A DNA stretch of 46,663 bases from a virus. The number at the start of each line of letters is the position of its first letter. Within the stretch, counting starts at the first letter, position 1. The stretch is from the IMG/VR virus record IMGVR_UViG_3300027782_000131, positions 1 through 46,663 of that record; one strand, given 5' to 3'. The notes under the pieces were generated by a model that did not search any database, was not told where the DNA came from, and saw nothing but the letters and a program-made list of their open reading frames with translations. This document shows positions 1 to 10,370 of the stretch, one piece after another. Made by a program: the position numbers and the translations under genes.

Positions 1-72
1 GTGCCAGTTGTCGCACTGGCACACTAAATAAGCACAAACCCCTCTGGGGTGCTATGATTACGAAGTAAATCA
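1..72 (+). promoter_or_regulatory. Early promoter cassette 1
   Basis: Perfect 8-bp hairpin GTGCCAGT-N6-ACTGGCAC at 1-22, a second dyad ACCCC-TCT-GGGGT at 38-50, then an extended -10 (TGC at 50-52, TATGAT at 53-58). The -10 overlaps a bulged dyad TGATTAC/GTAAATCA at 55-72. The first dyad is centred 41.5 bp before the -10, as in the other cassettes. No good -35 is seen. The ATG at 78 follows 20 nt after the -10 (23 nt if the ATG at 81 is used). Promoter function is inferred from repetition and geometry. Confidence 0.75.
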
Positions 73-77
73 CTCAA

Positions 78-206
78 ATGATGCCCAACACGTTCAATTT
101 TACTGGTGATGCCACTACCTATCTTGGTTTGGTTGGTGTTATTAGCACTGCTGTTATTCTTATTACTGTTTTCCGTTCTTATTGGTCTAGTCCTCTCAAC
201 AAATGA
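78..206 (+). CDS. Small single-span membrane protein, unknown function
   Basis: A 42-residue ORF beginning MMPNTF, first gene after cassette 1. Residues 15-32 (YLGLVGVISTAVILITVF) form one hydrophobic membrane helix, followed by a short tail RSYWSSPLNK with two basic residues, so it should sit in the host inner or thylakoid membrane. Its stop overlaps the next start as ATGA at 203-206, which supports translation and coupling with the downstream gene. The second Met (81) is an alternative start. I do not recognise a family. Small membrane proteins in phage early regions often alter the host envelope, but nothing here shows that. Confidence 0.65.
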   Translation: MMPNTFNFTGDATTYLGLVGVISTAVILITVFRSYWSSPLNK

Positions 207-421
207 ATTACTCAAAGTCTATTCAAGATTACGAAAAGGATCTCAAAGAATCAAAAAAGAAGTATGAGAAACTTCTCAAGCAAATGAAAAAAGCAAGGTC
301 TGAATATCACTACTACAATCTGTCTGATGAGGCAGAGGTATTGTATGAGGATATTGCTGATCTTCAAATGAGGATTACTGACTTGCGAAAGCAAAAGAAA
401 CTTGCTGAAATTGATGTCTGA
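203..421 (+). CDS. Small coiled-coil protein, unknown function
   Basis: 72 residues, very rich in Lys, Glu and Tyr (KDLKESKKKYEKLLKQMKKA near the N-terminus), predicted almost wholly helical with heptad-like spacing, so probably a coiled-coil dimer. It overlaps the upstream membrane-protein gene by 4 nt (ATGA), and its stop shares one base with the next start (TGATG at 419-423). The three genes should therefore be co-translated from cassette 1. No enzymatic motif, Cys cluster or signal peptide is visible. Unrecognised; function open. Confidence 0.7.
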   Translation: MNYSKSIQDYEKDLKESKKKYEKLLKQMKKARSEYHYYNLSDEAEVLYEDIADLQMRITDLRKQKKLAEIDV

Positions 422-654
422 TGTCTGACCTTTATTCTGAAATCCTTGAATTTGAAAAAATGAAAAACATTGACCGTGACCAACTCGTTGAAGATTACGT
501 CCAGCAAATGATTGAGAGTATGGATTACAAAACTATGGAACGTTTTGTTTATGATACTATGGTAGAAAATCTTACTGATTATACTGATGAAGAACTTCTC
601 ACAGAGGTTACTGACTACTACCCAGAATTGCTGGGGGACGTTGATACCCTGTGA
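421..654 (+). CDS. Small acidic protein, unknown function
   Basis: 77 residues, strongly acidic, mainly helical (EILEFEKMKNIDRDQLVEDY, then TDYTDEELLTEVTDYYPELL). Last gene of the first three-gene operon, starting one base inside the upstream stop. The stop lies inside the degenerate hairpin of cassette 2. Soluble, with no membrane segment or metal-binding motif. The charge pattern would fit a protein-binding or DNA-mimic role, but that is speculation; I do not recognise a family. Confidence 0.7.
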   Translation: MSDLYSEILEFEKMKNIDRDQLVEDYVQQMIESMDYKTMERFVYDTMVENLTDYTDEELLTEVTDYYPELLGDVDTL

Positions 655-719
655 CACTTATGGTGCTGGCACACTAAAAGAGCACAGCACCCCAAACCGT
701 GCTACAATTACTTCGTAAT
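651..719 (+). promoter_or_regulatory. Early promoter cassette 2
   Basis: A decayed version of the upstream dyad (GTGACACT at 651-658 against GCTGGCAC at 665-672) overlaps the end of the preceding gene. An ACTAAA element is at 673-678 and AGCAC/GTGCT flank the spacer. The extended -10 is TGC-TACAAT (TACAAT at 703-708). The -10 runs into a perfect dyad ATTAC-TTC-GTAAT at 707-719. ATG at 733 is 25 nt after the -10. The dyad centre is 41.5 bp from the -10, as in the other copies. Confidence 0.7.
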
Positions 720-732
720 CAATCAAAAACCG

Positions 733-906
733 ATGTTGATTCTTGATTCTGCTAATGTTTTCCAAAAGTATCCTGATTGTTTGGAAACTGTTTGTCGTTC
801 TCTAATGGACCACTACAACTTTATGTTGGGTCTTTCAATCAATACTGAAATTGATAACTTCTTCTATCAAGATGAGTTTGATACGTTCAAGTTTTACGAC
901 GTTTGA
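733..906 (+). CDS. Small protein, unknown function
   Basis: A 57-residue ORF (MLILDSANVFQKYPDCLETV...) directly behind cassette 2 at the standard 25-nt distance from the -10, which decides the start. It has two Cys residues, a helical middle and an acidic, aromatic C-terminus (DNFFYQDEFDTFKFYDV). It stands alone between cassettes 2 and 3. No Shine-Dalgarno sequence is visible. No family recognised. Confidence 0.6.
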   Translation: MLILDSANVFQKYPDCLETVCRSLMDHYNFMLGLSINTEIDNFFYQDEFDTFKFYDV

Positions 907-913
907 TTATACC

Positions 914-983
914 GTGTGCCACTTCTTCTGGTGGCACACAACACTTCCCAAACGGTCCTGACCGTGCTATGATGTATTCATCA
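914..983 (+). promoter_or_regulatory. Early promoter cassette 3
   Basis: Perfect 9-bp hairpin GTGTGCCAC/GTGGCACAC at 914-939, a second dyad ACGGTC-CT-GACCGT at 952-965, and an extended -10 TGC-TATGAT (968-973). The -10 overlaps a different dyad from the common type, TGATG-TATT-CATCA (970-983). The hairpin centre is 41.5 bp from the -10. A Shine-Dalgarno AAGGAGG (988-994) lies before the ATGs at 997 and 1000. Confidence 0.75.
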
Positions 984-996
984 AGTCAAGGAGGTT

Positions 997-1143
997 ATGA
1001 TGATTGACACTTGTGTTCTTCACGATGATTACGAGGATTTTGCACAAAAGTTTCTCGGTGTTGATTATGAAGACTTTGTTGGTCTTCAACTTGGTCTTCC
1101 TGACGAAGATGAAATTGAAATTGAATACTCTTTGAGTATTTGA
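997..1143 (+). CDS. Small acidic protein, unknown function
   Basis: A 48-residue acidic ORF (MMIDTCVLHDDYEDFAQKFL...EIEIEYSLSI). The start at 997 keeps the cassette's 24-nt spacing from the -10. The second ATG at 1000 is 5 nt from the AAGGAGG and may be the real initiator. No membrane segment or known domain. It is followed by a 60-nt gap and the 56-aa gene at 1204, probably in the same transcript. Unrecognised. Confidence 0.6.
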   Translation: MMIDTCVLHDDYEDFAQKFLGVDYEDFVGLQLGLPDEDEIEIEYSLSI

Positions 1144-1168
1144 TTGCAATAGTCCTGGTGATGACTTA

Positions 1169-1200
1169 AAAAGCACCAACTATTAACCTTGCTTTTCTTT
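1169..1200 (+). terminator. Weak A/T hairpin, possible terminator
   Basis: AAAAGCA (1169-1175) pairs with TGCTTTT (1190-1196) around a 14-nt loop and is followed by CTTT. The stem has only two G/C pairs, so it would be weak and could simply be leader structure for the gene at 1204. Confidence 0.25.
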
Positions 1201-1203
1201 ATA

Positions 1204-1374
1204 ATGTCTGCCAAACTGATTGCTCTTGCTACTGAACTCGTTGACACCAACCCTGCTGGTGCTCAACTGATTGTTAATATCACTAACGCAGAAACTGGTG
1301 CTGAACTCGTTGAAGCACTGGATAACTATGATTCTGTGGTTCTGGAAAATGTGACTGAACCTGTTGCTGTCTGA
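1204..1374 (+). CDS. Small protein, unknown function
   Basis: A 56-residue ORF starting MSAKLIALATELVDTNPAGA and ending VVLENVTEPVAV. An in-frame upstream ATG at 1189 would add MLFFI, but 1204 gives a typical phage N-terminus. Composition is rich in Ala, Val and Leu with regular acidic residues, so it is probably a compact helix/strand domain without membrane segments. No Shine-Dalgarno. It probably shares the cassette 3 transcript. No family recognised. Confidence 0.55.
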   Translation: MSAKLIALATELVDTNPAGAQLIVNITNAETGAELVEALDNYDSVVLENVTEPVAV

Positions 1375-1385
1375 TAAATATATCT

Positions 1386-1447
1386 TGTGCCACTTCTTCT
1401 AGTGGCACATAACACCCCCAATCGGGGTGGTTTTACCCTATAATAGG
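1386..1447 (+). promoter_or_regulatory. Early promoter cassette 4 with embedded terminator
   Basis: Perfect 9-bp hairpin TGTGCCACT-N6-AGTGGCACA (1386-1409), whose centre is 41.5 bp from the -10. Next come a G/C hairpin with a T-tract (annotated separately) and TATAAT at 1439-1444, inside the dyad CCTA-TAA-TAGG (1437-1447). Here the -10 lacks the TGn extension but has a consensus hexamer. ATG at 1469 is 25 nt downstream, the usual distance. Confidence 0.75.
1413..1434 (+). terminator. Rho-independent terminator within cassette 4
   Basis: CACCCC (1413-1418) pairs with GGGGTG (1424-1429) around CAATC, and the next bases are GTTTTA. The G/C-rich stem plus T-tract is a compact intrinsic terminator. 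It would end the transcript carrying the genes at 997 and 1204, just upstream of the next -10. Confidence 0.6.
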
Positions 1448-1468
1448 TTCATACCAAACAAAAAGGAG

Positions 1469-1594
1469 ATGACTACCCCAAATTGGCAACACAACTCAAA
1501 CAAAAACAAAAAAACTAAAGGAACTTGCAAAGCACAACTTAAAGCACGAAAGCAAGCACTTCAACACATCAAACGCAAACTGAACTTCAAATGA
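1469..1594 (+). CDS. Very small basic protein, unknown function
   Basis: A 41-residue, strongly basic ORF (MTTPNWQHNSNKNKKTKGTC, then KAQLKARKQALQHIKRKLNF K), probably a nucleic-acid-binding helix. The start follows cassette 4 at the normal 25-nt spacing. GGAG at 1465-1468 abuts the ATG, too close for ordinary Shine-Dalgarno use. The stop overlaps the next start as ATGA (1591-1594), which supports it being translated. No family recognised; a ribosome- or RNA-binding role is only suggested by charge. Confidence 0.55.
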   Translation: MTTPNWQHNSNKNKKTKGTCKAQLKARKQALQHIKRKLNFK

Positions 1595-1989
1595 CTACTG
1601 TGACTGCTGATAAAGTTCTTCAATACACTCAAACTCTTTGTGAGGTTCTTCGCACCAATTATCAATCGTATCGTATTGATTCTCACCGCAAATACATTGA
1701 AAAGGGTGAGAATGTAGAATGGCACGAAGAGCAAATTGATAAACTCTGCGAAGGTCAAGGTGTGCCAGAGTTTAATATCAATACTCTTCGCAAGTATCAT
1801 AAGATTATAATGAAAGATTATAACCAAAGTCACGTTCATCTCTTTGTGGATAAAGTGACTGGTGATGTTTATAAAGCAGCATCATTCAAAGCACCTGCCA
1901 AAGGTGTGCGTTATAATCTTCTGGATGATACATCCCGTGAGGAAATGTACAAACGTGCAGACTGGGCAGGGTCATATTTGTATAAGTAA
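1591..1989 (+). CDS. Conserved phage protein, unknown function
   Basis: 132 residues, coupled to the 41-aa basic gene by ATGA. The N-terminal 80 residues are helical (TADKVLQYTQTLCEVLRTNY and following). The C-terminal part, residues ~80-132, has the distinctive pattern HLFVDKVTGDVYKAASFKAP...YNLLDD...WAGSYLYK. I associate this with a widespread but uncharacterised phage protein. No catalytic motif is evident, and it is cytosolic by composition. It is the largest product of the cassette 4 operon. Confidence 0.8.
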   Translation: MTTVTADKVLQYTQTLCEVLRTNYQSYRIDSHRKYIEKGENVEWHEEQIDKLCEGQGVPEFNINTLRKYHKIIMKDYNQSHVHLFVDKVTGDVYKAASFKAPAKGVRYNLLDDTSREEMYKRADWAGSYLYK

Positions 1990-2074
1990 TCAAGACCCAA
2001 TCATTCTGGTATAAATTGATACAATGGGTAGTCTTATTATTTTCTGCTTTACTTTAACATCTCTTGTAATAGGG

Positions 2075-2103
2075 TTTACAGTATCTCATAATGCTGATAT
2101 ACT
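2075..2103 (+). promoter_or_regulatory. Sigma70-type promoter for the gene at 2134
   Basis: TTTACA (2075-2080), 17-bp spacer, TATACT (2098-2103) preceded by TGA, i.e. an extended -10. This is a conventional promoter, unlike the repeated cassettes, with a leader of about 24 nt before the ATG at 2134. Confidence 0.6.
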
Positions 2104-2133
2104 ATTGCAAGAGAGTTGCTTTTTACCTACCAA

Positions 2134-2325
2134 ATGCCAAAGATAACATTTGCAAAAGGAGTTGAAGTTTATTACAATGGAACATACGGTGTAGTTGATT
2201 TCATCTGCGAAAAATACATTACAATTTGTATTAACAAAGCAGAGAACAAATTAAAAGATGTATGCCTGTTAGTTTATCCAAATCAATATGGTGATATAAC
2301 ATTAGTAAAAGAGAGCAATAAGTGA
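2134..2325 (+). CDS. Small conserved phage protein, unknown function
   Basis: 63 residues from ATG 2134 (MPKITFAKGVEVYYNGTYGV, then VDFICEKYITICINK...VCLLVYPNQYGDI). The alternation of hydrophobic and polar residues suggests an all-beta barrel-like fold. A TTG at 2116 in frame is an alternative start, but ATG sits better behind the promoter at 2075-2103. It resembles small proteins I have seen in cyanophage genomes, with no assigned role. It ends just before cassette 5. Confidence 0.7.
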   Translation: MPKITFAKGVEVYYNGTYGVVDFICEKYITICINKAENKLKDVCLLVYPNQYGDITLVKESNK

Positions 2326-2332
2326 TACTGCT

Positions 2333-2403
2333 GTGCCACTTGTAGCACTGTCCCTATAATCCCCCAAATGACCCGATCTCGTGCTATGATTACGGAGTAA
2401 TCA
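2333..2403 (+). promoter_or_regulatory. Early promoter cassette 5
   Basis: A decayed upstream dyad (GTGCCACT-N6-CACTGTCC type, centred near 2343.5), a TATAAT hexamer at 2355-2360, and exactly 30 bp later the extended -10 TGC-TATGAT (2385-2390). The -10 overlaps the perfect dyad TGATTAC-GGA-GTAATCA (2387-2403). ATG at 2414 is 24 nt after the -10. Same geometry as the other copies. Confidence 0.75.
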
Positions 2404-2413
2404 ACCAAAGCAA

Positions 2414-2650
2414 ATGACTAAAACTCTTCAACAAACTTACAATGGTTGGGCAAACTATCAAACCTGGAATGTTGCTTTATGGATAGGTAACAACGAGGGT
2501 TTATATAATCGTGCCCGTCGTTATGATAGTTACTCAAAGTTTGTAAGTTCTATGTCTTTTGGTGCTAAAACTCCTGATGGTGTTTCTTATGATTCTTTGG
2601 CACTTGACCATCAAGAACTCAATGATTTCTTTGCTGAACTGTTTAACTAA
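2414..2650 (+). CDS. NYQTWN-motif phage protein, unknown function
   Basis: 78 residues. The N-terminal motif GWANYQTWNVALWIGNNEGL (residues ~11-30) is the hallmark of a small family found in many phages and some bacteria, with no known activity. The rest is helical and ends in LDHQELNDFFAELFN. It is the first gene behind cassette 5, with the start fixed by the 24-nt spacing. It is followed one base later by the next gene's ATG, so it leads a four-gene operon that runs towards the tRNA. Confidence 0.85.
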   Translation: MTKTLQQTYNGWANYQTWNVALWIGNNEGLYNRARRYDSYSKFVSSMSFGAKTPDGVSYDSLALDHQELNDFFAELFN

Positions 2651-2651
2651 A

Positions 2652-2879
2652 ATGAACGAAATCTATTCCTACACTACTTCCCGTTGGGATTGGCAGTCTG
2701 GTGATGTAAATCAAATGTGGATTCAAGAGATTGAAGAATCACCTGATTGTTATAGGTACATTGCTGTTGCTTATAATCCTCGTAAGGATACAAGTATGGT
2801 GATGTCTAAACCTCGTGGGTATTTTGATACTCTACATTGGGTTCGTAAGTTCTGTGCTTCCTTCTGTATTCTTCCCTGA
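2652..2879 (+). CDS. Small protein, unknown function
   Basis: 75 residues from ATG 2652 (MNEIYSYTTSRWDWQSGDVN). A longer in-frame ORF from 2559 would overlap the previous gene extensively and is rejected. The protein is rich in aromatic residues (several Trp and Tyr) and ends WVRKFCASFCILP. It looks like a compact beta-rich domain followed by a helix. Second gene of the cassette 5 operon, with a one-base gap after the previous stop. No family recognised. Confidence 0.7.
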   Translation: MNEIYSYTTSRWDWQSGDVNQMWIQEIEESPDCYRYIAVAYNPRKDTSMVMSKPRGYFDTLHWVRKFCASFCILP

Positions 2880-2881
2880 TT

Positions 2882-3016
2882 ATGTTTGATTCTACACTTG
2901 ATTTGTTCTGTCAACACGATGACGCAGAGTATGCTGATGAGTTTGCGATGGAACTAGAAGAAAAAGCAGCAGAACTAGAAGTTACTGTTGATTATTATAT
3001 GATGGAGTTTATGTAA
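2882..3016 (+). CDS. Very small acidic protein, unknown function
   Basis: A 44-residue ORF (MFDSTLDLFCQHDDAEYADE, FAMELEEKAAELEVTVDYYM, MEFM). It is acidic and helical. It begins two bases after the previous stop, and its own stop overlaps the next ATG (TAATG at 3014-3018), so it fills the operon without gaps. No family or motif recognised. Confidence 0.6.
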   Translation: MFDSTLDLFCQHDDAEYADEFAMELEEKAAELEVTVDYYMMEFM

Positions 3017-3348
3017 TGTCTGATTGGGAAGTCACAGTAATCACTGACTCTAACTATATCAAAAAAGTTAGAGTTGATAACTGCATCACTCGTAAAGATG
3101 CAGAAGCACAAGCATTAGGTATGACTGGTGCTCAAAGAGTTTCTGTAAGCAATCCAAAGACATATAAAGATGATGTAGATGATTATTCTTCCACATCATC
3201 TAGTTCTGATGGTGGAGATGGTGCTGGTTTCTTGGTTATTGGTGCCCTGTTCTTGATTTATATGTTCTGGAAGTTTATTCTTCTGATTGGTGGTATTGCT
3301 CTGATTATTTGGTTAATTATCAAGTATCTCACGCGGGACACATACTAA
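3016..3348 (+). CDS. Membrane protein with cytosolic N-terminal domain
   Basis: 110 residues. Residues 1-50 form a soluble domain with a beta/alpha pattern (WEVTVITDSNYIKKVRVDNC). Residues 51-70 are a Ser/Asp/Gly linker (DDYSSTSSSSDGGDGAG). Residues ~71-106 are strongly hydrophobic (FLVIGALFLIYMFWKFILL then IGGIALIIWLIIKYL), enough for two close membrane helices. No signal peptide. Last protein gene of the cassette 5 operon; the tRNA follows 17 nt later. Function unknown; the domain plan suggests a membrane-anchored adaptor. Confidence 0.75.
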   Translation: MSDWEVTVITDSNYIKKVRVDNCITRKDAEAQALGMTGAQRVSVSNPKTYKDDVDDYSSTSSSSDGGDGAGFLVIGALFLIYMFWKFILLIGGIALIIWLIIKYLTRDTY

Positions 3349-3364
3349 ATAAGTTACATCTTAT

Positions 3365-3436
3365 GCCGAAGTAGCTCAGTGATAGAGCAGGAATTTTGTA
3401 AATTTCAGGTCGCAGGTTTGATCCCTGTCTTCGGCT
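3365..3436 (+). tRNA. tRNA-Thr (anticodon UGU)
   Basis: A complete cloverleaf. The acceptor stem is GCCGAAG/CTTCGGC (7 bp perfect), the D arm GCTC-AGTGATA-GAGC, and the anticodon stem GGAAT/ATTTC with loop TTTGTAA, giving anticodon TGT. The T arm is GCAGG-TTTGATC-CCTGT, and base 73 is T. No CCA is encoded. The usual G19-C56 tertiary pair appears as A19-U56, a compensated change. It would read ACA, a codon used heavily in the AT-rich virion genes to the right. It lies at the end of the cassette 5 operon. Confidence 0.93.
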
Positions 3437-3466
3437 TTAATAAAGGTTTAATTGTTATTTTTTATT

Positions 3467-3474
3467 TATAAATA
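3467..3474 (+). promoter_or_regulatory. T4-type late promoter motif
   Basis: Exact TATAAATA, the T4 gp55-dependent late -10 consensus, 25 nt upstream of the GIY-YIG start codon. The surrounding sequence is very A/T-rich, so a chance match is possible. Confidence 0.5.
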
Positions 3475-3498
3475 ATAACATGATGGGTTTCACCACTT

Positions 3499-4032
3499 AT
3501 GTATTACACTTACGCATATTTAAGAGAAGATAAAACTCCATATTATATTGGTAGAGGAAAACACCACAAGGGATACAAGTACCATAGAATGTCTCAAAAG
3601 CATACTTGTGGTATTCCTCCACAGGAAAGAAGAATAGTTTTGAAAGATAATTTATCAAAAGAACAAGCAATGAATCACGAAGAGTATATGATTGCTTTGT
3701 TTGGTATCATTCATGATAATACTGGTATATTGAGAAATTATGTTAGGAATAGTTGTGGTGGAAGTGATAAAGGGAGAAATTTATCTGAAGAGACAAAACA
3801 AAAAATGTCTCTTGCTATGAAAAAAAGATGGGAGAACGGTGTTTATGATAATGAAGAATATAAAAATAAAATAGCAGATAGTAATAGAAAAAATCCAAGA
3901 GTTAAACAACATCATGAAGAAACAAAAGAAAAACAAAGAAAAGCAAACACTGGAAGACCCCAAAGTGAAGAAACTAAAAGAAAAAGGTCTGAAAGTATAA
4001 AAAAATGGTGGAAACAGAAAAAATCAATATAA
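3499..4032 (+). CDS. GIY-YIG homing endonuclease (free-standing)
   Basis: 177 residues. The N-terminal GIY-YIG nuclease domain (residues 1-~95) has the variant core YAYLREDKTPYYIGRG, a conserved ERRIVLKDNLSKEQA block, the presumed catalytic Glu in NHEEYMIALFG, and an Asn/GG element NSCGG. Residues ~97-177 hold Lys-rich NUMOD3-like DNA-binding repeats (NLSEETKQKMSLAMKKRW and SEETKRKRSESIKKWW). It probably cuts an intron-less or tRNA-less allele to spread itself. It lies 62 nt after tRNA-Thr behind a TATAAATA motif. AGA/GGA codons set it apart from its early-gene neighbours, which suggests separate entry. Related to the gene at 37598. Confidence 0.9.
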   Translation: MYYTYAYLREDKTPYYIGRGKHHKGYKYHRMSQKHTCGIPPQERRIVLKDNLSKEQAMNHEEYMIALFGIIHDNTGILRNYVRNSCGGSDKGRNLSEETKQKMSLAMKKRWENGVYDNEEYKNKIADSNRKNPRVKQHHEETKEKQRKANTGRPQSEETKRKRSESIKKWWKQKKSI

Positions 4033-4044
4033 AATTCTACCATT

Positions 4045-4112
4045 GGGACAAATGTTGAACTGTCCCTATAATTGACCGAGCACGAGGTTTCCGTGCTACA
4101 ATACTTGTATTG
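4045..4112 (+). promoter_or_regulatory. Early promoter cassette 6
   Basis: Dyad GGGACA-N10-TGTCCC (4045-4066, centre 41.5 bp from the -10) differs in sequence from the other cassettes but keeps the position. TATAAT is at 4067-4072, AGCACG/CGTGCT flank the spacer, and the extended -10 TGC-TACAAT (4097-4102) overlaps a perfect dyad CAATAC-TT-GTATTG (4099-4112). ATG at 4126 is 24 nt after the -10. Confidence 0.75.
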
Positions 4113-4125
4113 ATGAATTGATTTT

Positions 4126-5358
4126 ATGCAACTTTATCCCTACCAGCAAAGAACTCTTGATGCTATTAAATCTAAAATTAAGGGAACTTGTTATCTTCCT
4201 ACTGGTGCGGGTAAAACAATAGTGATGATGGAAGATGCTCGGCAACGCATCATCAATACAAAAAAACCGATGACATTTGTTGTTGTCTGTCCGAGAATTC
4301 TTCTTTCCGAACAACTTTCATTTGAATTTGAAGAATATCTCAAAGATTTTCAGATTTCTATTATGCAATGTCATAGTGGCACAAAATCTCATCACGTTTC
4401 TTCTACAAAACCAGATGTGATTGTAGAGCAGAATGGACTTGCACTTACATTTGGTAAACACAACTTCATCTTCACCACCTATAACTCTTTGGGTCGTGTG
4501 AATGATGCTAAAATCAGTGTTGATGTTGTTTATTTTGATGAAGCACATCATTGTGTGAAACCAAGCAACTTTGTTGGTATTGCTCACACTTCCAAGTATG
4601 CTGATAATGCTTATTTCTTCACGGCAACTCCCAAGTTCACAAATGCAGAGCAATCAATGAATAATACTGCTGTGTATGGAGAGAAAATCATTTCTATTCC
4701 AGCACAAGAATTGATTGATGTTGGTAGTATTATTCCTCCTCGTATTCATACTTACGAAGCAAAGACTATTCGCACCAAAGAGAATGCTGCTTATGTGGAT
4801 GCAGAGAACATTATTGGTATTCTCAATGAGATGGATGAAGATAGTGTCCCCAAAGTTCTTGTTGCTGCTCCAAGCACTCGTGTGATTTGGGATATGTTCA
4901 CTGAAAGTGATTTGCTGAAACAACTCAATGATATGGGTTATGCTGTACTTCACGTTACATCCAAGCACGGTGCTTATGTGAATAAGAAGAAAGTCAGTCG
5001 TGAGAAATTTTTTGAGATTATGACCGAGTTTGGTAATGACCCTCAACAAAAGTTCATTGTGTTTCATTATTCCATTTTGAGTGAAGGAATGAACGTACAC
5101 GGACTTACTCATTGTATTATGCTTCGTAATCTTCCTGTGATTGAGATGTGCCAAACAATCGGTAGAGTCATACGAGTTCATAAAGAAGATCGCAAAGCAA
5201 TCCAAGAAGGTAAGATGAAAGCAGGAGAGTTTGCATTTTATCGCAAACCCTTTGGTACTATCACTATCCCTGTTAATAACAACTATGGGGATAAGATTGC
5301 TCGGCAACTTGAGAATGTGGTGAATGCTATTTTTGTAAAAGGAGAGTTGTGTGTATAG
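4126..5358 (+). CDS. SF2 DNA/RNA helicase (DEAH-box, ResIII-like)
   Basis: 410 residues with the superfamily 2 motifs in order. These are motif I PTGAGKT (25-31), motif Ia-like VVVCPRILLSEQL, motif II DEAH (138-141), motif III TATP (166-169), motif V SEGMNVHGL (319-327) and motif VI QTIGRVIR (343-350). It should use ATP to translocate on or unwind nucleic acid. It is smaller than T4 UvsW (about 500 aa) and starts almost directly at the helicase core, so I do not call it UvsW. It is driven by its own cassette and sits among early genes, which suggests a role in replication/recombination or in remodelling host nucleic acid. Arg codons are mostly CGN. Confidence 0.92.
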   Translation: MQLYPYQQRTLDAIKSKIKGTCYLPTGAGKTIVMMEDARQRIINTKKPMTFVVVCPRILLSEQLSFEFEEYLKDFQISIMQCHSGTKSHHVSSTKPDVIVEQNGLALTFGKHNFIFTTYNSLGRVNDAKISVDVVYFDEAHHCVKPSNFVGIAHTSKYADNAYFFTATPKFTNAEQSMNNTAVYGEKIISIPAQELIDVGSIIPPRIHTYEAKTIRTKENAAYVDAENIIGILNEMDEDSVPKVLVAAPSTRVIWDMFTESDLLKQLNDMGYAVLHVTSKHGAYVNKKKVSREKFFEIMTEFGNDPQQKFIVFHYSILSEGMNVHGLTHCIMLRNLPVIEMCQTIGRVIRVHKEDRKAIQEGKMKAGEFAFYRKPFGTITIPVNNNYGDKIARQLENVVNAIFVKGELCV

Positions 5359-5386
5359 ATAATTGTATCTGTCCCACATACAAACT

Positions 5387-5551
5387 ATGCCATTTGAAAA
5401 GAAGTTCAAGAATACAGGAGATACAAAGCACATACGAGTTCCAATTGTTTATGCTGACCTTATTAGTGAACTAATGATAGTTTTTGATAAGAAGTTTGAT
5501 GTGAACAAAGGAAAGCACATTTTAAGACTCTTTATAGACCGTTTCTTGTGA
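5387..5551 (+). CDS. Small possible ribbon-helix-helix protein
   Basis: 54 residues from ATG 5387 (MPFEKKFKNTGDTKHIRVPI). A basic start, a strand-like KHIRVPIVY and two helices (DLISELMIVFDKKF; HILRLFIDRFL) fit the size and order of a ribbon-helix-helix DNA-binding domain. It shares the pattern RVP...LxxVhDKKxD...LhxxFI with the 54-aa protein at 9770. The in-frame TTG at 5363 is a less likely start. It lies downstream of the helicase, before cassette 7. The fold assignment is inference from pattern only. Confidence 0.6.
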   Translation: MPFEKKFKNTGDTKHIRVPIVYADLISELMIVFDKKFDVNKGKHILRLFIDRFL

Positions 5552-5566
5552 GTCCAATGATGAGAT

Positions 5567-5637
5567 GTGCCAGTTGTTGGACTGTCCATACAATCGCCCA
5601 AACCCACTCAATCCGTGCTATGATTACGGAGTAATCA
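5567..5637 (+). promoter_or_regulatory. Early promoter cassette 7
   Basis: A decayed dyad GTGCCAGT (5567-5574) against ACTGTCCA (5581-5588), centred 41.5 bp from the -10. TACAAT at 5589-5594 lies exactly 30 bp before the extended -10 TGC-TATGAT (5619-5624), which overlaps the perfect dyad TGATTAC-GGA-GTAATCA (5621-5637). ATG at 5649 is 25 nt downstream of the -10. Confidence 0.78.
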
Positions 5638-5648
5638 AGAGAAAACTG

Positions 5649-5846
5649 ATGCCTGTTGTTCCTGGTTTTACTTTCAATGAGGAAACTGAAATGATCTCGG
5701 CACTTTATAGTGCTGTTGCACTGATGAAACGTTATGAAGAAGAATCTGTGGATCATAAAAGTTATTGGATGCAACGTGTAGAAGATTACACAAAAGTTGC
5801 TGATAAGTTTTCTAATGCCTGCCGTGATGCCATTTACAATGCCTGA
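5649..5846 (+). CDS. Small helical protein, unknown function
   Basis: 65 residues from ATG 5649 (MPVVPGFTFNEETEMISALY). The start is set by the cassette spacing; a longer in-frame ORF from 5565 would read through the promoter and is rejected. Residues 10-65 are helical and amphipathic (MISALYSAVALMKRYEEESV; VEDYTKVADKFSNACRDAIY). It has no membrane segment or known motif. First gene of a six-gene operon that extends to 6834; its end overlaps the next start. Confidence 0.7.
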   Translation: MPVVPGFTFNEETEMISALYSAVALMKRYEEESVDHKSYWMQRVEDYTKVADKFSNACRDAIYNA

Positions 5847-6024
5847 TTTAATGGAGAAAGTTCTAATGATTGAAGAAGCACTGACCGACAAACAACTAAC
5901 TGCTTTGCGTGATATGTTGTATCACTACAAAGAGTTTCAGGAAGAACTCTATGACTATCCTGAACCTGATACTTTGTTTACTCAAACACAACGAGAACTC
6001 TTCACTCTTCTGGATATTGTATGA
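5839..6024 (+). CDS. Small acidic helical protein, unknown function
   Basis: 61 residues from ATG 5839 (MPDLMEKVLMIEEALTDKQL), overlapping the upstream stop by 8 nt. ATG 5851 (MEKVLM...) is an alternative start. Acidic and helical, ending QRELFTLLDIV. Its stop overlaps the next ATG as ATGA (6021-6024), so translation is probably coupled through the operon. No family recognised. Confidence 0.65.
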   Translation: MPDLMEKVLMIEEALTDKQLTALRDMLYHYKEFQEELYDYPEPDTLFTQTQRELFTLLDIV

Positions 6025-6206
6025 GCAACAACACAACTTGGTTTGAAGTATTTGTTATTCTTGGTGCTGGTTTTGTGCTTCTCGTAGTTGCTGCGGGTCT
6101 TCTTGCTATCACCAATCCAAAAATTGAAGCAAAATGTATCGCAAAAGGAGGGCAAGTTTTTGCTGTTCCTGGTCATCCTAGTTCCTGTCTTTATCCTGCA
6201 AAATGA
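6021..6206 (+). CDS. Small single-span membrane protein
   Basis: 61 residues. A short polar start (MSNNTTW), one strongly hydrophobic helix at residues ~8-30 (FEVFVILGAGFVLLVVAAGL LAI), then a ~30-residue tail with two Cys (KCIAKGGQVF...HPSSCLYPAK). If the tail faces the periplasm or lumen, the two Cys could form a disulphide. It overlaps its neighbours on both sides by ATGA. No family recognised; its topology resembles other small phage membrane proteins. Confidence 0.7.
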   Translation: MSNNTTWFEVFVILGAGFVLLVVAAGLLAITNPKIEAKCIAKGGQVFAVPGHPSSCLYPAK

Positions 6207-6352
6207 ATTACCTCACTTCTGATGATCTCAACAATCTGATTCGTTTGGTTGAAGAAAACAATCAATACAACGATGATGATGACAAAGAGTTTTGGGATGA
6301 TGTTATGATTCGTCTCAATCAAGAATACCGTCACTGTTTGGATGATTTCTAA
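6203..6352 (+). CDS. Small acidic protein, unknown function
   Basis: A 49-residue ORF (MNYLTSDDLNNLIRLVEENN, QYNDDDDKEFWDDVMIRLNQ, EYRHCLDDF), starting inside the previous stop (ATGA at 6203-6206). It has two helices joined by an Asp-rich DDDD turn. The next gene starts two bases after its stop. Acidic and soluble. Unrecognised. Confidence 0.65.
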   Translation: MNYLTSDDLNNLIRLVEENNQYNDDDDKEFWDDVMIRLNQEYRHCLDDF

Positions 6353-6354
6353 TA

Positions 6355-6540
6355 ATGACACTCACTCAAGAATTGAAAAACGGTGCAACTTTGGTCTGGA
6401 ATGACCCAGACCCCATTGAGGGCAATGATTACACAATTGTGTCAATCAAAGAACTTAATGATGAAATTGCACTGATTCAGTATAATCAAGGTCTGAGTGA
6501 AGCAGAAGTTTTTCTTCACGAAATCAATTATTCTAACTGA
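6355..6540 (+). CDS. Small protein, unknown function
   Basis: 61 residues (MTLTQELKNGATLVWNDPDP, then NDYTIVSIKELNDEIALIQY...SEAEVFLHEINYSN). The strand-rich pattern with turns at NDPDP and NDE suggests a small beta barrel or SH3-like fold. It begins 2 nt after the upstream stop, in the operon from cassette 7. No catalytic residues or metal motif visible. No family recognised. Confidence 0.68.
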   Translation: MTLTQELKNGATLVWNDPDPIEGNDYTIVSIKELNDEIALIQYNQGLSEAEVFLHEINYSN

Positions 6541-6567
6541 TAATAAACCAACAACTAAACAAATCAA

Positions 6568-6834
6568 ATGGAAATCTCTAAAATCCTCACACTATCAACA
6601 GCACACCTTCATCCTTTAGAGGGACAAAAGATTGATAAAGTTTCTTATGTTCATAGTGATACTTGTTCTCTGGTAAATGCTGACCCAGAGATGTATAGTT
6701 TTTATATCGAAGAAAGTATGCCTTGTTTGGTAGATTTGCTGAAATCAGTTAATGAGCAATACGATGATATTGTTTATGTGTTATTTGATGCTGATGCAAA
6801 TGTAGAGGATGTGTTTAGGAAATATGATTGGTGA
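6568..6834 (+). CDS. DUF5983-like phage protein
   Basis: 88 residues. The N-terminus ILTLSTAHLHP and the C-terminus YVLFDADANVEDVFRKYDW match, from memory, the two ends of the DUF5983 family, small phage and plasmid proteins of unknown activity. The middle has a strand-helix pattern (YSFYIEESMPCLVDLLKSVN). Last gene of the cassette 7 operon, 27 nt after the previous stop. The family call is moderate and no function is known. Confidence 0.65.
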   Translation: MEISKILTLSTAHLHPLEGQKIDKVSYVHSDTCSLVNADPEMYSFYIEESMPCLVDLLKSVNEQYDDIVYVLFDADANVEDVFRKYDW

Positions 6835-6835
6835 T

Positions 6836-6906
6836 GTGCCAGTTGTGCAAGTGTCCATAACATTCCCAAAACGACCCGAACCCGTGCTATGATTACGGAG
6901 TAATCA
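6836..6906 (+). promoter_or_regulatory. Early promoter cassette 8
   Basis: A decayed upstream dyad centred at 6846.5, 41.5 bp from the -10. TAACAT at 6858-6863 lies exactly 30 bp before the extended -10 TGC-TATGAT (6888-6893), which overlaps the perfect dyad TGATTAC-GGA-GTAATCA (6890-6906). ATG at 6918 is 25 nt from the -10. It drives the ArdA-like gene. Confidence 0.78.
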
Positions 6907-6917
6907 AAAGAAAACCA

Positions 6918-7337
6918 ATGTCTGTTCCTTTCACTATGAATTACAAAGAAGTTTACGAACAGGAAACTGTAAGCAAAATTGAAGAACTTCTAGAAGATTC
7001 TTATTCTCTGGAAGACATTATCAATTTTATTGATGAGAACTCTGAAGCAGATTTTCGCAATTTTTATGAAGAGTATGTAACTGTTGGTGAAGAGTATTCT
7101 TATGGTGCTGTAGATGCTTTCATTGAAGAGTTTGGTCTTCATTCTTTGGTTGGTGATAACTTTCAAGATGCTTATCGTGGGCAATGGGAATCCAAAGCAT
7201 CTTATGCAGAAAATTATGTAAGTGATTGTTATGTTGTTGATCTTCCTGGTTTTCTAGAGATTGATTGGGAAGCATCATTTGAAAATCTGGATGTTATTTT
7301 CAACGGCAATGGTTATGTGTTTGACACTCAATTCTGA
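6918..7337 (+). CDS. ArdA-like antirestriction protein (short form)
   Basis: 139 residues, highly acidic. Residues 66-139 match the central and C-terminal part of ArdA: AFIEEFGLHSL, FQDAYRGQWESKASYAENY (82-100), then DLPGFLEIDWEASFENLDVI and VFDTQF. ArdA proteins are DNA mimics that occupy the DNA site of type I restriction enzymes. Usual length is about 165-180 aa. The N-terminal domain here is reduced to ~60 mostly helical residues, so it is a short form. Transcription from its own early cassette fits a need to act as soon as DNA enters. Activity is inferred from similarity. Confidence 0.78.
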   Translation: MSVPFTMNYKEVYEQETVSKIEELLEDSYSLEDIINFIDENSEADFRNFYEEYVTVGEEYSYGAVDAFIEEFGLHSLVGDNFQDAYRGQWESKASYAENYVSDCYVVDLPGFLEIDWEASFENLDVIFNGNGYVFDTQF

Positions 7338-7347
7338 ACTTATTCTA

Positions 7348-7611
7348 ATGACTGATTTTCCTACTTTACATTCTAAAGACGGCACGATGGTTGTTCAATA
7401 CTATCCTGTCAAAACTCCTTATGGTGATATTAGCAAAGAATGGTGTTTGCAAGTTCTTTCTTGGGAAGGTGTAGAGCAAATGTCTAAAAAGTTTCTCAAT
7501 CGTGTTGAGAAATCTCTTGCTATCCGTGACCGTGTTTCACTTGGTTATATTGTCACTGCTGACAATAGTAATCTTCCACAACTTGGTAATCCTTTCTACG
7601 GTGCTGTTTAG
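7348..7611 (+). CDS. Small protein, unknown function
   Basis: 87 residues from ATG 7348 (MTDFPTLHSKDGTMVVQYYP). The longer in-frame ORF from 7261 would overlap the ArdA-like gene and is rejected. A strand-rich first half (VVQYYPVKTPYGDISKEWCL) is followed by a helix (VEQMSKKFLNRVEKSLAIRD) and a C-terminal strand. It lies 10 nt after the ArdA-like gene on the same transcript, so a role in early defence is possible but unproved. No family recognised. Confidence 0.68.
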   Translation: MTDFPTLHSKDGTMVVQYYPVKTPYGDISKEWCLQVLSWEGVEQMSKKFLNRVEKSLAIRDRVSLGYIVTADNSNLPQLGNPFYGAV

Positions 7612-7644
7612 TGTAACAGGTCCCACATGAGTCCAATGATACCA

Positions 7645-7702
7645 TGTGCCACTTGTTCTAGTGGCACAGTAAAAGAGCACAGACCTGAAAATGTGGTATT
7701 CT
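7645..7702 (+). promoter_or_regulatory. Early promoter cassette 9 (variant)
   Basis: Perfect 9-bp hairpin TGTGCCACT-N6-AGTGGCACA (7645-7668), an AGTAAAAGAGCAC element, then TGG-TATTCT as a weaker extended -10 (7697-7702). The dyad centre is 40.5 bp from the -10, one base off the others. The -10 is not inside a dyad, and the ATG at 7764 is 62 nt away. This copy breaks the fixed leader rule. Confidence 0.5.
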
Positions 7703-7763
7703 TAAAGGGTGGAGGGAGCAGGTCGCACTGTCCCACACAAGTCTCAATCTTTATTCTTTTAAC

Positions 7764-8438
7764 ATGGACCGTTCACAAGTCATCTCCAAGATTCAGTCCA
7801 TCCTGAAACTTCAGGAAGGAACTTCTTTTGATGGTGAAGCAGATGCTGCTGCAAAGATGATTGATAAACTTTGCAAACAGTATGGTGTTACGATTACTGA
7901 AGCAACTGAAACTCAAGTATTTGATGAGTCGTTTGCTACTTTCAAACGTGCGAACTATGCACTTACGACTCTTTTGAATGCGATTGCAACATTTTATGAT
8001 GCAAAAGCATATATGAAGAATGGTGATGTGAAATCTCTTCAGGTTATTGGTTCTGATGCACAACAGATTCAAGTGAAACTGTATTTTGATTACTTGAATC
8101 AAGTAATGGAGAAAGAAGCAGAGGTTGCACATCAAGCAGAGAAGATTCTATCTAATCTGACTGGTAAGAGTGTATCTCGCAGTTTCAAACTTAATTTCCG
8201 TAAGGCATTTGCTGATAAAGTAGCACTGCGGTTGTTTGAGATGAAGAAAGAAGAGAACCGAGTTCACGATGATGCAAAAGCAGTGAGTGATAAACTCTCT
8301 ACGATGCGATTTGGACGTGCTCGTAAAATGAATGGTGGAAGTGGTGAAGGTGCTGCTATTGGGTCAAATGTTGGTGCTGGTGTTTCTTTGAATCGTCAGG
8401 CATCAGGATCTACTCAACGTGCTCTGTGTGGTGTATAG
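7764..8438 (+). CDS. DUF2786 domain protein
   Basis: 224 residues. Residues ~5-45 (ISKIQSILKLQEGTSFDGEA then AAAKMIDKLCKQYGV) are a DUF2786 domain, a helical unit common in phage and bacterial proteins of unknown function. The middle (~60-170) is a predicted alpha/beta region, and the C-terminus is a Gly/Ser-rich low-complexity tail (MNGGSGEGAAIGSNVGAGVS). No nuclease motif is evident. It is the only gene of the cassette 9 unit. Related proteins occur in T4-like cyanophages; their role is unknown. Confidence 0.8.
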   Translation: MDRSQVISKIQSILKLQEGTSFDGEADAAAKMIDKLCKQYGVTITEATETQVFDESFATFKRANYALTTLLNAIATFYDAKAYMKNGDVKSLQVIGSDAQQIQVKLYFDYLNQVMEKEAEVAHQAEKILSNLTGKSVSRSFKLNFRKAFADKVALRLFEMKKEENRVHDDAKAVSDKLSTMRFGRARKMNGGSGEGAAIGSNVGAGVSLNRQASGSTQRALCGV

Positions 8439-8471
8439 GTTATCCTGTCCCACACGAGACTCATTATGCGA

Positions 8472-8543
8472 TGTGCCAGTCGTAGAACTGGCACAGTAAA
8501 AGAGCAGAGACCCCATTTCCGTGCTATGATTACGGAGTAATCA
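8472..8543 (+). promoter_or_regulatory. Early promoter cassette 10
   Basis: Perfect 9-bp hairpin TGTGCCAGT-N6-ACTGGCACA (8472-8495), AGTAAA at 8495-8500, and the extended -10 TGC-TATGAT (8525-8530). The -10 overlaps the perfect dyad TGATTAC-GGA-GTAATCA (8527-8543). Dyad centre to -10 is 41.5 bp and -10 to ATG 8555 is 25 nt. This is the cleanest copy. Confidence 0.8.
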
Positions 8544-8554
8544 ATCAAAAGCAG

Positions 8555-8728
8555 ATGACGACTTCACAGAAGATGGAAAAGTATTTCCTTCTCAATCTTA
8601 TTTCTCTGATTGATGAAGTGCAAGGTAAAACAAAATTGCCTTCACAATTCAATCAAAAGAACAAGTCAGTCTTCAAAAAACAAATCAAATCACAAAAACA
8701 AGATCAATCTGCCCTTGCCAATGTTTAA
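8555..8728 (+). CDS. Small basic protein, unknown function
   Basis: A 57-residue ORF (MTTSQKMEKYFLLNLISLID then EVQGKTKLPS...), with the start fixed by cassette 10. The N-terminal helix is amphipathic; residues 24-52 are rich in Lys and Gln (QFNQKNKSVFKKQIKSQKQD) and probably disordered or nucleic-acid binding. Overlaps the next gene by 8 nt. No family recognised. Confidence 0.6.
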   Translation: MTTSQKMEKYFLLNLISLIDEVQGKTKLPSQFNQKNKSVFKKQIKSQKQDQSALANV

Positions 8729-9717: not shown

Positions 9718-9769
9718 TAGTTTTGTCCCGAAACCCCCCCTAAATAACCCTAGTTTCGGGACAAAACTA
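9718..9769 (+). repeat. 17-bp perfect inverted repeat abutting a start codon
   Basis: TAGTTTTGTCCCGAAAC (9718-9734) is exactly complementary to 9753-9769, with an 18-nt loop that contains a C7 run and CTAAATAA. The right arm ends one base before the ATG at 9770. In RNA this would make a very stable hairpin covering the ribosome-binding region; in DNA it could be an operator for the protein encoded next to it. Confidence 0.9.
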
Positions 9770-9934
9770 ATGAGACCTCAAAAGTATAAGAATCTAGGAC
9801 CAACGGAAAGAATGAGAGTGCCTTTATACAAACAGATTACGATTTTATGTGATGTGTTAGACAGAAAGGCGGATGAAGGTTATGATGCCGTTGAGTTATT
9901 AGATTCGTTTATTGAGGATATAAGCAGTCGTTGA
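9770..9934 (+). CDS. Small possible ribbon-helix-helix protein beside origin-like repeats
   Basis: A 54-residue ORF (MRPQKYKNLGPTERMRVPLY, KQITILCDVLDRKADEGYDA, VELLDSFIEDISSR). Basic tail, strand-like RMRVPLY, helix, turn, helix: the right size and order for a ribbon-helix-helix DNA-binding protein. It shares a pattern with the 54-aa protein at 5387. It lies between a 17-bp inverted repeat that touches its ATG and a cluster of DnaA-box-like repeats just after its stop, a typical setting for an autoregulated or origin-binding protein. Codons are AGA/TTA/GGA type, unlike the early block. Function inferred from context. Confidence 0.6.
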   Translation: MRPQKYKNLGPTERMRVPLYKQITILCDVLDRKADEGYDAVELLDSFIEDISSR

Positions 9935-9943
9935 GACAGTACC

Positions 9944-9995
9944 TGTGAAAAACCTGTGGAAAACTTATAAGAAACTGTGGAAAACCTGTGTATAA
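9944..9995 (+). repeat. Four phased DnaA-box-like sites
   Basis: TGTGAAAAA (9944-9952), TGTGGAAAA (9955-9963), TGTGGAAAA (9976-9984) and TGTGTATAA (9987-9995), all in one orientation. On the minus strand they read TTTTTCACA, TTTTCCACA twice, and TTATACACA. TTTTCCACA is the DnaA box reported for cyanobacteria, and TTATACACA matches the E. coli form TTATNCACA. Starts are 11, 21 and 11 bp apart, close to one, two and one helical turns. Confidence 0.7.
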
Positions 9996-9998
9996 CTC

Positions 9999-10370
9999 TT
10001 CGTCATGTATAAGAGTTCGTTATAGCAGTTCGTCATACAGCACAGTATAAGCATATGTTCGTTATAGTATGTGAGAGTATGACAAACTAACAGTCCTTCA
10101 ATTAGGACACCCCCCATATAGTTTGCTATTCGGTTCGTCCTGTGCTATACTGTTCGTTGTACACAGTTCTGTGTGCTAACTATAACCCCACTATCTGATA
10201 AACTCACACTCACTTCGTCTTTTTGGATACCCCCCATATAGTTTCTTATTTGAATCGCACAGTGTTACATAAGCACTTATATCGTCCCCTTCGTTATAAG
10301 GACACCCCCCATATAGTTTATTATAACAACACACAGTACTGAATATAAGTATTCGTGATTGTTCGTCTAT
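9999..10370 (+). repeat. TTCGT repeat field (ten copies)
   Basis: TTCGT occurs on the plus strand at 9999, 10016, 10029, 10058, 10134, 10153, 10214, 10290, 10352 and 10362. Subtypes are TTCGTTATA (10016, 10058, 10290) and TTCGTCAT (9999, 10029). By base composition less than one copy would be expected in this length. The region has no plausible gene. It looks like iterons or binding sites for a dedicated protein. Confidence 0.7.
10105..10319 (+). repeat. Three 20-bp direct repeats GGAYACCCCCCATATAGTTT
   Basis: Copies at 10105-10124, 10225-10244 and 10300-10319, identical except C/T at position 4. Spacing is 120 and 75 bp, and the intervals are interspersed with TTCGT repeats. Two related C-runs followed by TAAA lie at 9734-9743 and 10436-10444. 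Runs of six C are striking in such A/T-rich DNA. Confidence 0.85.

Follow-up and report, generated by a model that had tools for sequence, protein, structure and literature searches.

Half-site boxes at a fixed distance from extended -10 elements: a probable class of activator-dependent promoters in T4-like cyanophages

Ten repeated cassettes occupy the beginning of the viral DNA analysed here (an IMG/VR virus fragment of 46,663 bases, hereafter the window), and comparison of their sequences makes it fairly probable that they belong to a class of activator-dependent promoters found in many T4-like cyanophages, mostly in early-type regions of small genes. Each cassette combines a -10 element, extended in most copies, with an upstream box of 22 base pairs (bp), in which two oppositely oriented 6-bp half-sites (consensus NNGMCA) are separated by exactly 10 bp. 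All ten lie on the + strand within the first 8.6 kb and none within the structural-gene part of the window. The combined pattern of box and -10 is found 11 times in the window; in 100 dinucleotide shuffles the mean was 0.04, and no shuffle had more than 2. In the mechanism that we propose, a putative dimeric DNA-binding protein would occupy the box, whose centre is at about -53.5, always on the same face of the helix, and would recruit the host sigma-A RNA polymerase to -10 elements that have no -35, probably through the carboxy-terminal domain of the alpha subunit (alpha-CTD) or sigma region 4. The components of the ten cassettes are as follows.

1 to 22, + strand: box 1, GTGCCA-N10-TGGCAC, perfect dyad
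53 to 58, + strand: extended -10 TGC-TATGAT, gap 27
58 to 68, + strand: weak start-site dyad TTAC-GAA-GTAA
651 to 672, + strand: box 2, GTGACA-N10-TGGCAC, one mismatch; the open reading frame (ORF) at 421-654 stops at its TGA
703 to 708, + strand: extended -10 TGC-TACAAT, gap 27
707 to 719, + strand: start-site dyad ATTAC-TTC-GTAAT
916 to 937, + strand: box 3, GTGCCA-N10-TGGCAC, perfect dyad
968 to 973, + strand: extended -10 TGC-TATGAT, gap 27
970 to 983, + strand: start-site dyad TGATG-TATT-CATCA
1387 to 1408, + strand: box 4, GTGCCA-N10-TGGCAC, perfect dyad
1413 to 1434, + strand: terminator-like GC hairpin followed by GTTTT, within the spacer, fold -11.2 kcal/mol; gap still 27
1439 to 1444, + strand: -10 CCC-TATAAT, gap 27; start-site dyad absent
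2333 to 2354, + strand: box 5, hybrid GTGCCA-N10-TGTCCC
2385 to 2390, + strand: extended -10 TGC-TATGAT, gap 27
2387 to 2403, + strand: start-site dyad TGATTAC-GGA-GTAATCA
4045 to 4066, + strand: box 6, GGGACA-N10-TGTCCC, perfect dyad built from the other half-site type
4097 to 4102, + strand: extended -10 TGC-TACAAT, gap 27
4099 to 4112, + strand: start-site dyad CAATAC-TT-GTATTG
5567 to 5588, + strand: box 7, hybrid GTGCCA-N10-TGTCCA
5619 to 5624, + strand: extended -10 TGC-TATGAT, gap 27
5621 to 5637, + strand: start-site dyad TGATTAC-GGA-GTAATCA
6836 to 6857, + strand: box 8, hybrid GTGCCA-N10-TGTCCA
6888 to 6893, + strand: extended -10 TGC-TATGAT, gap 27
6890 to 6906, + strand: start-site dyad TGATTAC-GGA-GTAATCA
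7646 to 7667, + strand: box 9, GTGCCA-N10-TGGCAC, perfect dyad
7697 to 7702, + strand: -10 TGG-TATTCT, gap 26; start-site dyad absent
8473 to 8494, + strand: box 10, GTGCCA-N10-TGGCAC, perfect dyad
8525 to 8530, + strand: extended -10 TGC-TATGAT, gap 27
8527 to 8543, + strand: start-site dyad TGATTAC-GGA-GTAATCA

An earlier inspection of the window, made from its letters alone (the sequence-only reading), had placed ten -10 hexamers at 53, 703, 968, 1439, 2385, 4097, 5619, 6888, 7697 and 8525, each with the centre of a dyad 41.5 bp before its first base (40.5 bp at 7697). All ten positions were confirmed and the distances were reproduced exactly; expressed as the gap between the last base of the right half-site and TGn, the spacing is 27 bp in nine of the ten copies and 26 bp at 7697. 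The accompanying statement that every copy has a dyad holds for six of them (53, 968, 1439, 4097, 7697 and 8525), which have perfect 6-bp arms. The copy at 703 has a single arm mismatch (GTGACA..TGGCAC), and those at 2385, 5619 and 6888 are not dyads at all: each pairs a left half-site of one type (GTGCCA) with a right half-site of another (TGTCCC or TGTCCA). The arms at 4045 (GGGACA/TGTCCC) do differ completely, and represent the homotypic form of the second half-site type. Most -10 elements had been described as TGC-TATGAT or TGC-TACAAT; TGC is indeed present in eight copies, the exceptions being CCC-TATAAT at 1439 and TGG-TATTCT at 7697.

The geometry of the cassette is preserved far beyond the window. 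In a scan of IMG/VR relatives that permitted gaps of 12-42 and half-site intervals of 8-12, the half-site interval was 10 bp in 148 of 151 sites and the gap was 26-28 in 139 of them. A second scan of these relatives began with the box and inspected every gap from 3 to 69; strong extended -10s numbered 268 at gaps 25-29, while the other gaps averaged about 0.2 each and no further peak appeared at a distance of one helical turn. When sites were instead picked by the -10 and the start sequence, the box was present at gap 26-28 in 109 of 110, and whole-length scans of four contigs showed each strong box of this type with a -10 at the fixed distance on one side. The standard deviation of the box-to--10 gap is 0.72 bp versus about 10 for the distance from -10 to ATG, and spacer identity among sites is 0.42 versus 0.27 expected from composition. 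In other words, the constant phase seen by the sequence-only reading extends to related phages: the spacing does not drift, staying at 27 ± 2 despite unrelated spacers. A nucleotide search with one cassette against annotated phages gave no useful match.

The same spike at the fixed gap is found in complete genomes of cyanophage isolates. Observed versus expected counts are 11 vs 0.45 in P-SSM2, 9 vs 0.45 in S-SRM01, 9 vs 0.36 in both S-CRM01 and S-PM2, and 4 vs 0.18 in S-SZBM1, with Poisson p values from 4e-5 to 3e-12 over these five; in S-BM3 and S-T4 the spike is weak. For the pooled isolates, the N10 interval gives 54 sites against 4.3 expected, whereas N8, N9, N11 and N12 are near chance and the reversed sequence gives 0. 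Because P-SSM2, S-PM2 and other isolates carry it, the layout is, on this comparison, not peculiar to the window genome; it can be regarded as common to many T4-like cyanophages (Kyanoviridae). The isolates also bear on the idea that the spacing is a functionless relic of recent repeat duplication. In the window and its relatives, several cassettes plainly derive from each other by copying, as that idea would have it, but the spacers of P-SSM2, S-PM2, S-CRM01 and S-SRM01 are unrelated and yet keep the same spacing, and the distance from -10 to ATG drifts. We therefore regard a relic as extremely unlikely.

What kind of element is the box? Promoter-early stem-loop units (PeSLs) are reported from T4-like phages (Arbiol 2010; Comeau 2014), and the upstream dyad might be an RNA stem-loop that terminates the upstream gene, the whole cassette being a terminator/promoter unit of this type. 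There is some likeness. Both are small regulatory units repeated amid short early-type genes in hyperplastic regions, and in several phages terminator and promoter are fused. The cassettes, too, recur between the small variable genes of one region. The box stands close behind stop codons (of 29 cases with GTGACA as the left arm, 15 use its TGA as the stop codon of the preceding ORF), six of the ten window copies are able to form a hairpin, and PeSLs reportedly mediate shuffling in T4-like phages (cited in PMC4503421). Nonetheless, the arms do not behave as paired strands. The innermost positions (CA...TG) are almost invariant, whereas the outer ones vary independently on the two sides; arm complementarity is 543, no better than the 534 ± 6 obtained with arms shuffled among sites, and 46 of 109 sites have fewer than six complementary pairs. 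Part of the 110-site set came from loci first retrieved with the box pattern, a bias towards perfect arms that makes this covariation test conservative. Moreover, three window copies fold no better than shuffles, the half-sites keep both their sequence and the 10-bp interval, and in the cassette sequences no T-run directly follows the box, T-runs being seen only further down in some spacers. The box thus lacks the compensating arms of a conserved stem-loop upstream of an early promoter as well as the GC hairpin with an immediate T-run of an intrinsic terminator. Since the arms show no covariation, an RNA hairpin was ruled out for the box; with half-sites that vary independently, it is best read as a DNA site for a protein dimer. 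A unit of the PeSL type is accordingly very unlikely: the conserved upstream part of the cassette is a pair of DNA half-sites at a fixed spacing instead of a stem-loop, and there is no T4-type -35.

True terminators, where present, lie inside the spacer, between the box and the -10. The Rho-independent terminators annotated by the depositors of S-CRM01 fall there and leave the spacing unchanged; such a spacer has no room for a -35. In-spacer intrinsic terminators are seen in S-CRM01 at 78829, 82944 and 105712 (- strand), and similar ones in S-BM3, S-T4, P-SSM2 and S-PM2. The sequence-only reading missed these terminators, as well as a second dyad, at the start site and with covarying arms, which is described below.

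The promoter part of the cassette is simpler. It has a TGn-TATAAT-like hexamer, no -35 and a purine start about 7 nucleotides downstream; the -10 was partly selected in the site set, the purine at the predicted +1 was not. The sequence-only reading had seen no clear -35, and indeed no TTGACA-like -35 is conserved among the compared sites. Judged by TTGACA-like conservation, the cassettes do not have the conserved -35 together with a -10 that marks T4 early promoters. The claim that a protein bound at about -53 helps the polymerase, or that dyad plus promoter form a single unit of recognition, turned out to be the best-supported reading, although the element is not basically a dyad and not specific to this genome. 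Its support comes from the spacing of 27 ± 2 in deeply diverged phages, the constant pairing of the box with a -10 and the independence of the half-sites. Two other explanations would keep the box as a DNA site. First, it might serve a repressor or silencing protein as its operator. A dimer site beside a promoter fits either sign of regulation, and our searches named no binder; on the other hand, a site at -53.5 is outside the core contacts of the polymerase, and a fixed helical phase combined with a missing -35 is what activation needs, so that we consider an operator unlikely. Second, the polymerase itself might read the box by means of an alternative or phage-modified sigma or alpha subunit, with no separate activator. 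That box and -10 form one unit in all four contigs scanned whole speaks for this possibility. Against it, the box is too far upstream for sigma region 4, since a -35 would lie some 20 bp closer, and two inverted GC-rich hexamers do not resemble the UP element bound by alpha-CTD; we judge direct reading distinctly unlikely, slightly more so than an operator.

An activator-dependent promoter of the proposed kind would have parallels elsewhere. The promoters activated by P2 Ogr/P4 Delta, which are late promoters, have a dyad near -55 and a poor -35, and use a small phage activator together with the host sigma-70 polymerase. The centre of the cassette box at -53.5 is close to this position, whereas its half-site sequence and interval differ, and no Ogr/Delta homologue was found in 13 records. 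T4 middle promoters have a MotA box near -30. Like them, the cassettes replace the -35 with a box and have an extended -10, but their box is bipartite and lies at about -53.5. NtcA sites are usually near -41.5. Upstream palindromes of the NtcA type (GTA-N8-TAC) are used by cyanophages beside their promoters (PMC3037559), a likeness in arrangement that does not extend to the half-site or the interval. On sequence features, then, the cassette is an extended -10 sigma-70 promoter; for each of the named activator and stem-loop families tested, it lacks at least one defining feature, and its presumed working is that of other activator-dependent phage promoters.

Most cassettes have a second inverted repeat, which extends from the third -10 base to about +7 with a loop of 2-4 bases. 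It is present in eight of the ten window cassettes (58-8543), weakly so in the copy at 53. Among 168 distinct sequences, 98 (58%) have start-site arms of at least 5, compared with 6.8 (4%) when the downstream bases are shuffled and 27.8 (maximum 40) when tails are swapped between sites; neighbouring places give 1-4%. The arm pairs are diverse (TGATTAC/GTAATCA, TGATG/CATCA, TCATAC/GTATGA, CAATAC/GTATTG, CTGAAC/GTTCAG, GTGAAC/GTTCAC and others), and because so many different pairs are complementary, it is the pairing and not the sequence that is kept. This dyad is mostly limited to the window lineage, few isolate sites carrying one. Transcription is predicted to start at a purine, 12 bases beyond the first -10 base; this +1 opens the 3' arm or lies one or two bases inside it, and therefore RNA started locally would not include the 5' arm, and RNA from an upstream cassette would contain the whole hairpin, which usually ends about 10 nucleotides before the start codon. 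A separate observation is that in 55 cassettes (for example, at IMG/VR loci L102, L109, L083 and L090) the predicted +1 coincides exactly with an ATG, which suggests leaderless mRNAs.

A similar arrangement occurs in the leaders of T4 gene e, I-TevI and Aeh1 mobE, where a hairpin contains the promoter in its 5' strand; read-through RNA is therefore occluded, and RNA that starts locally stays free (PMC3014915). The cassette promoter likewise lies in the 5' strand of the start-site hairpin, and since the gene e and I-TevI leaders act in this way, it is a natural guess that the hairpin would occlude read-through RNA. There are differences: those leaders sequester the start region and belong to late promoters, unlike the cassettes, whose hairpin begins inside the -10 and recurs in tandem early-type promoters. 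It is tempting to speculate, with less confidence than for the activator, that in the window lineage the self-complementary start region would form a hairpin only in RNA reading through from an upstream cassette, that such RNA would be poorly translated, and that RNA started at the cassette, having no 5' arm, would escape this. The full proposal (a hitherto undescribed promoter class with a dimeric activator, probably encoded by the phage or carried in its virion, in one lineage of which promoters mark their own RNA as translatable and leave read-through RNA silent) is possible, and we put it forward only tentatively.

Several results weigh against these interpretations. The spike was not seen in Syn9, S-CREM1, S-H38 and Sf-FR1, and hence not every member of the family has the system. 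Among the IMG/VR sites many are related, and some were picked by a pattern that contained the box. An anti-correlation between a spacer terminator and the start-site dyad had been predicted and was not seen (8 terminators, p = 1); the two were therefore rejected as alternatives against read-through. Nor did the search for a binder single out a protein. Among the early ORFs of the window that were tested, Pfam and PHROGs detected no DNA-binding domain. Ogr/Delta (PF04606) was absent from the 13 records, several of which are fragments, with a positive E. coli control, and this family was dropped as the activator. Phyletic profiling of box-bearing versus box-lacking phages returned small unknown proteins only, with no obvious regulator. 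On the host side, a search of 400 genomes from the Synechococcus lacustris family gave 5 occurrences of TGTGCCA-N10-TGGCACA, roughly the number estimated for chance, and the joint pattern with up to 3 mismatches gives 28 matches versus 10 in the control, 7 of them in one conserved run.

A scan of 84,980 species yielded 12 stretches versus roughly 9 estimated by chance, and with counts about chance in picocyanobacterial genomes a host regulon for the box was discarded. The 'transcriptional regulator' g78 of S-CRM01 was also rejected as the binder, having no Pfam domain and being present in phages without the spike. Since host genomes show no such regulon, we hold an activator encoded by the phage or carried in the virion to be somewhat more likely than a host factor. 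Two places in cyanobacterial genomes deserve mention in their own right. In genome G075 (L267:2948-3030), one full cassette of the phage type, with the start-site dyad GCTGT-TTTC-ACAGC, lies in the chromosome near an ORF resembling part of the cyanophage gp61 primase, and may be phage-derived. In genome G044 (L268:3043-3064), a perfect box lies about 180 bp upstream of a tyrosine-integrase-like ORF and not far from a probable transfer RNA (tRNA) gene, possibly in a genomic island.

The presence of terminase, neck and sheath proteins makes the window T4-like, and as its terminase shares 78.5% identity with the one from Synechococcus phage S-CREM1, the window is assigned to a T4-like cyanophage. 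Short + strand ORFs fill the first 9 kb, and large structural genes start at about 12.5 kb. A helicase ORF (4126-5358) lies downstream of the -10 at 4097 and an anti-restriction (ArdA-like) ORF (6918-7337) downstream of that at 6888; this gene content, together with the location in a small-gene region, suggests early or early-middle expression of the cassettes. Other features of the window were observed as well. A sequence like TGTCCCACAYGAGTCCAATGATACNATG recurs 5' of several boxes (7620-7645, 8440-8472 and in many relatives). A tRNA-Thr gene (anticodon TGT) is followed by an ORF that contains NUMOD3 and is likely a homing endonuclease (3365-4032). A long dyad, TTTTGTCCCGAAAC...GTTTCGGGACAAAA, lies at 9721-9770 between the early-type and structural regions, and a gene-poor stretch (10101-10324 and 9938-9997) has three ACACCCCCCATATAGTTT-like and three CCTGTGGAAAACT-like copies, possibly an origin or control region.

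The control of early and middle transcription in cyanomyoviruses has been described as 'still unclear' (PMC2984593), and motA and asi are missing from these phages (PMC2984593, PMC5780444). A large genome comparison looked for sigma-70, Pho, NtcA and late promoters (PMC3037559). We found no account of the box in the literature searched, which did not include the primary papers on S-PM2 and Syn9, and an earlier description is possible. How T4-like cyanophages exert control without MotA, Asi, Alt and Mod is thus an acknowledged gap, and the presence of the motif in the isolates P-SSM2 and S-PM2 makes the question directly testable. A layout common to marine and freshwater cyanobacterial viruses would offer a concrete, testable answer as to how their early genes are switched on, and the box with its spacing provides a sequence rule for finding promoters in environmental cyanophage genomes. 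If the start-site dyad does gate translation, a trick known from a few T4 genes would be extended to whole early regions.

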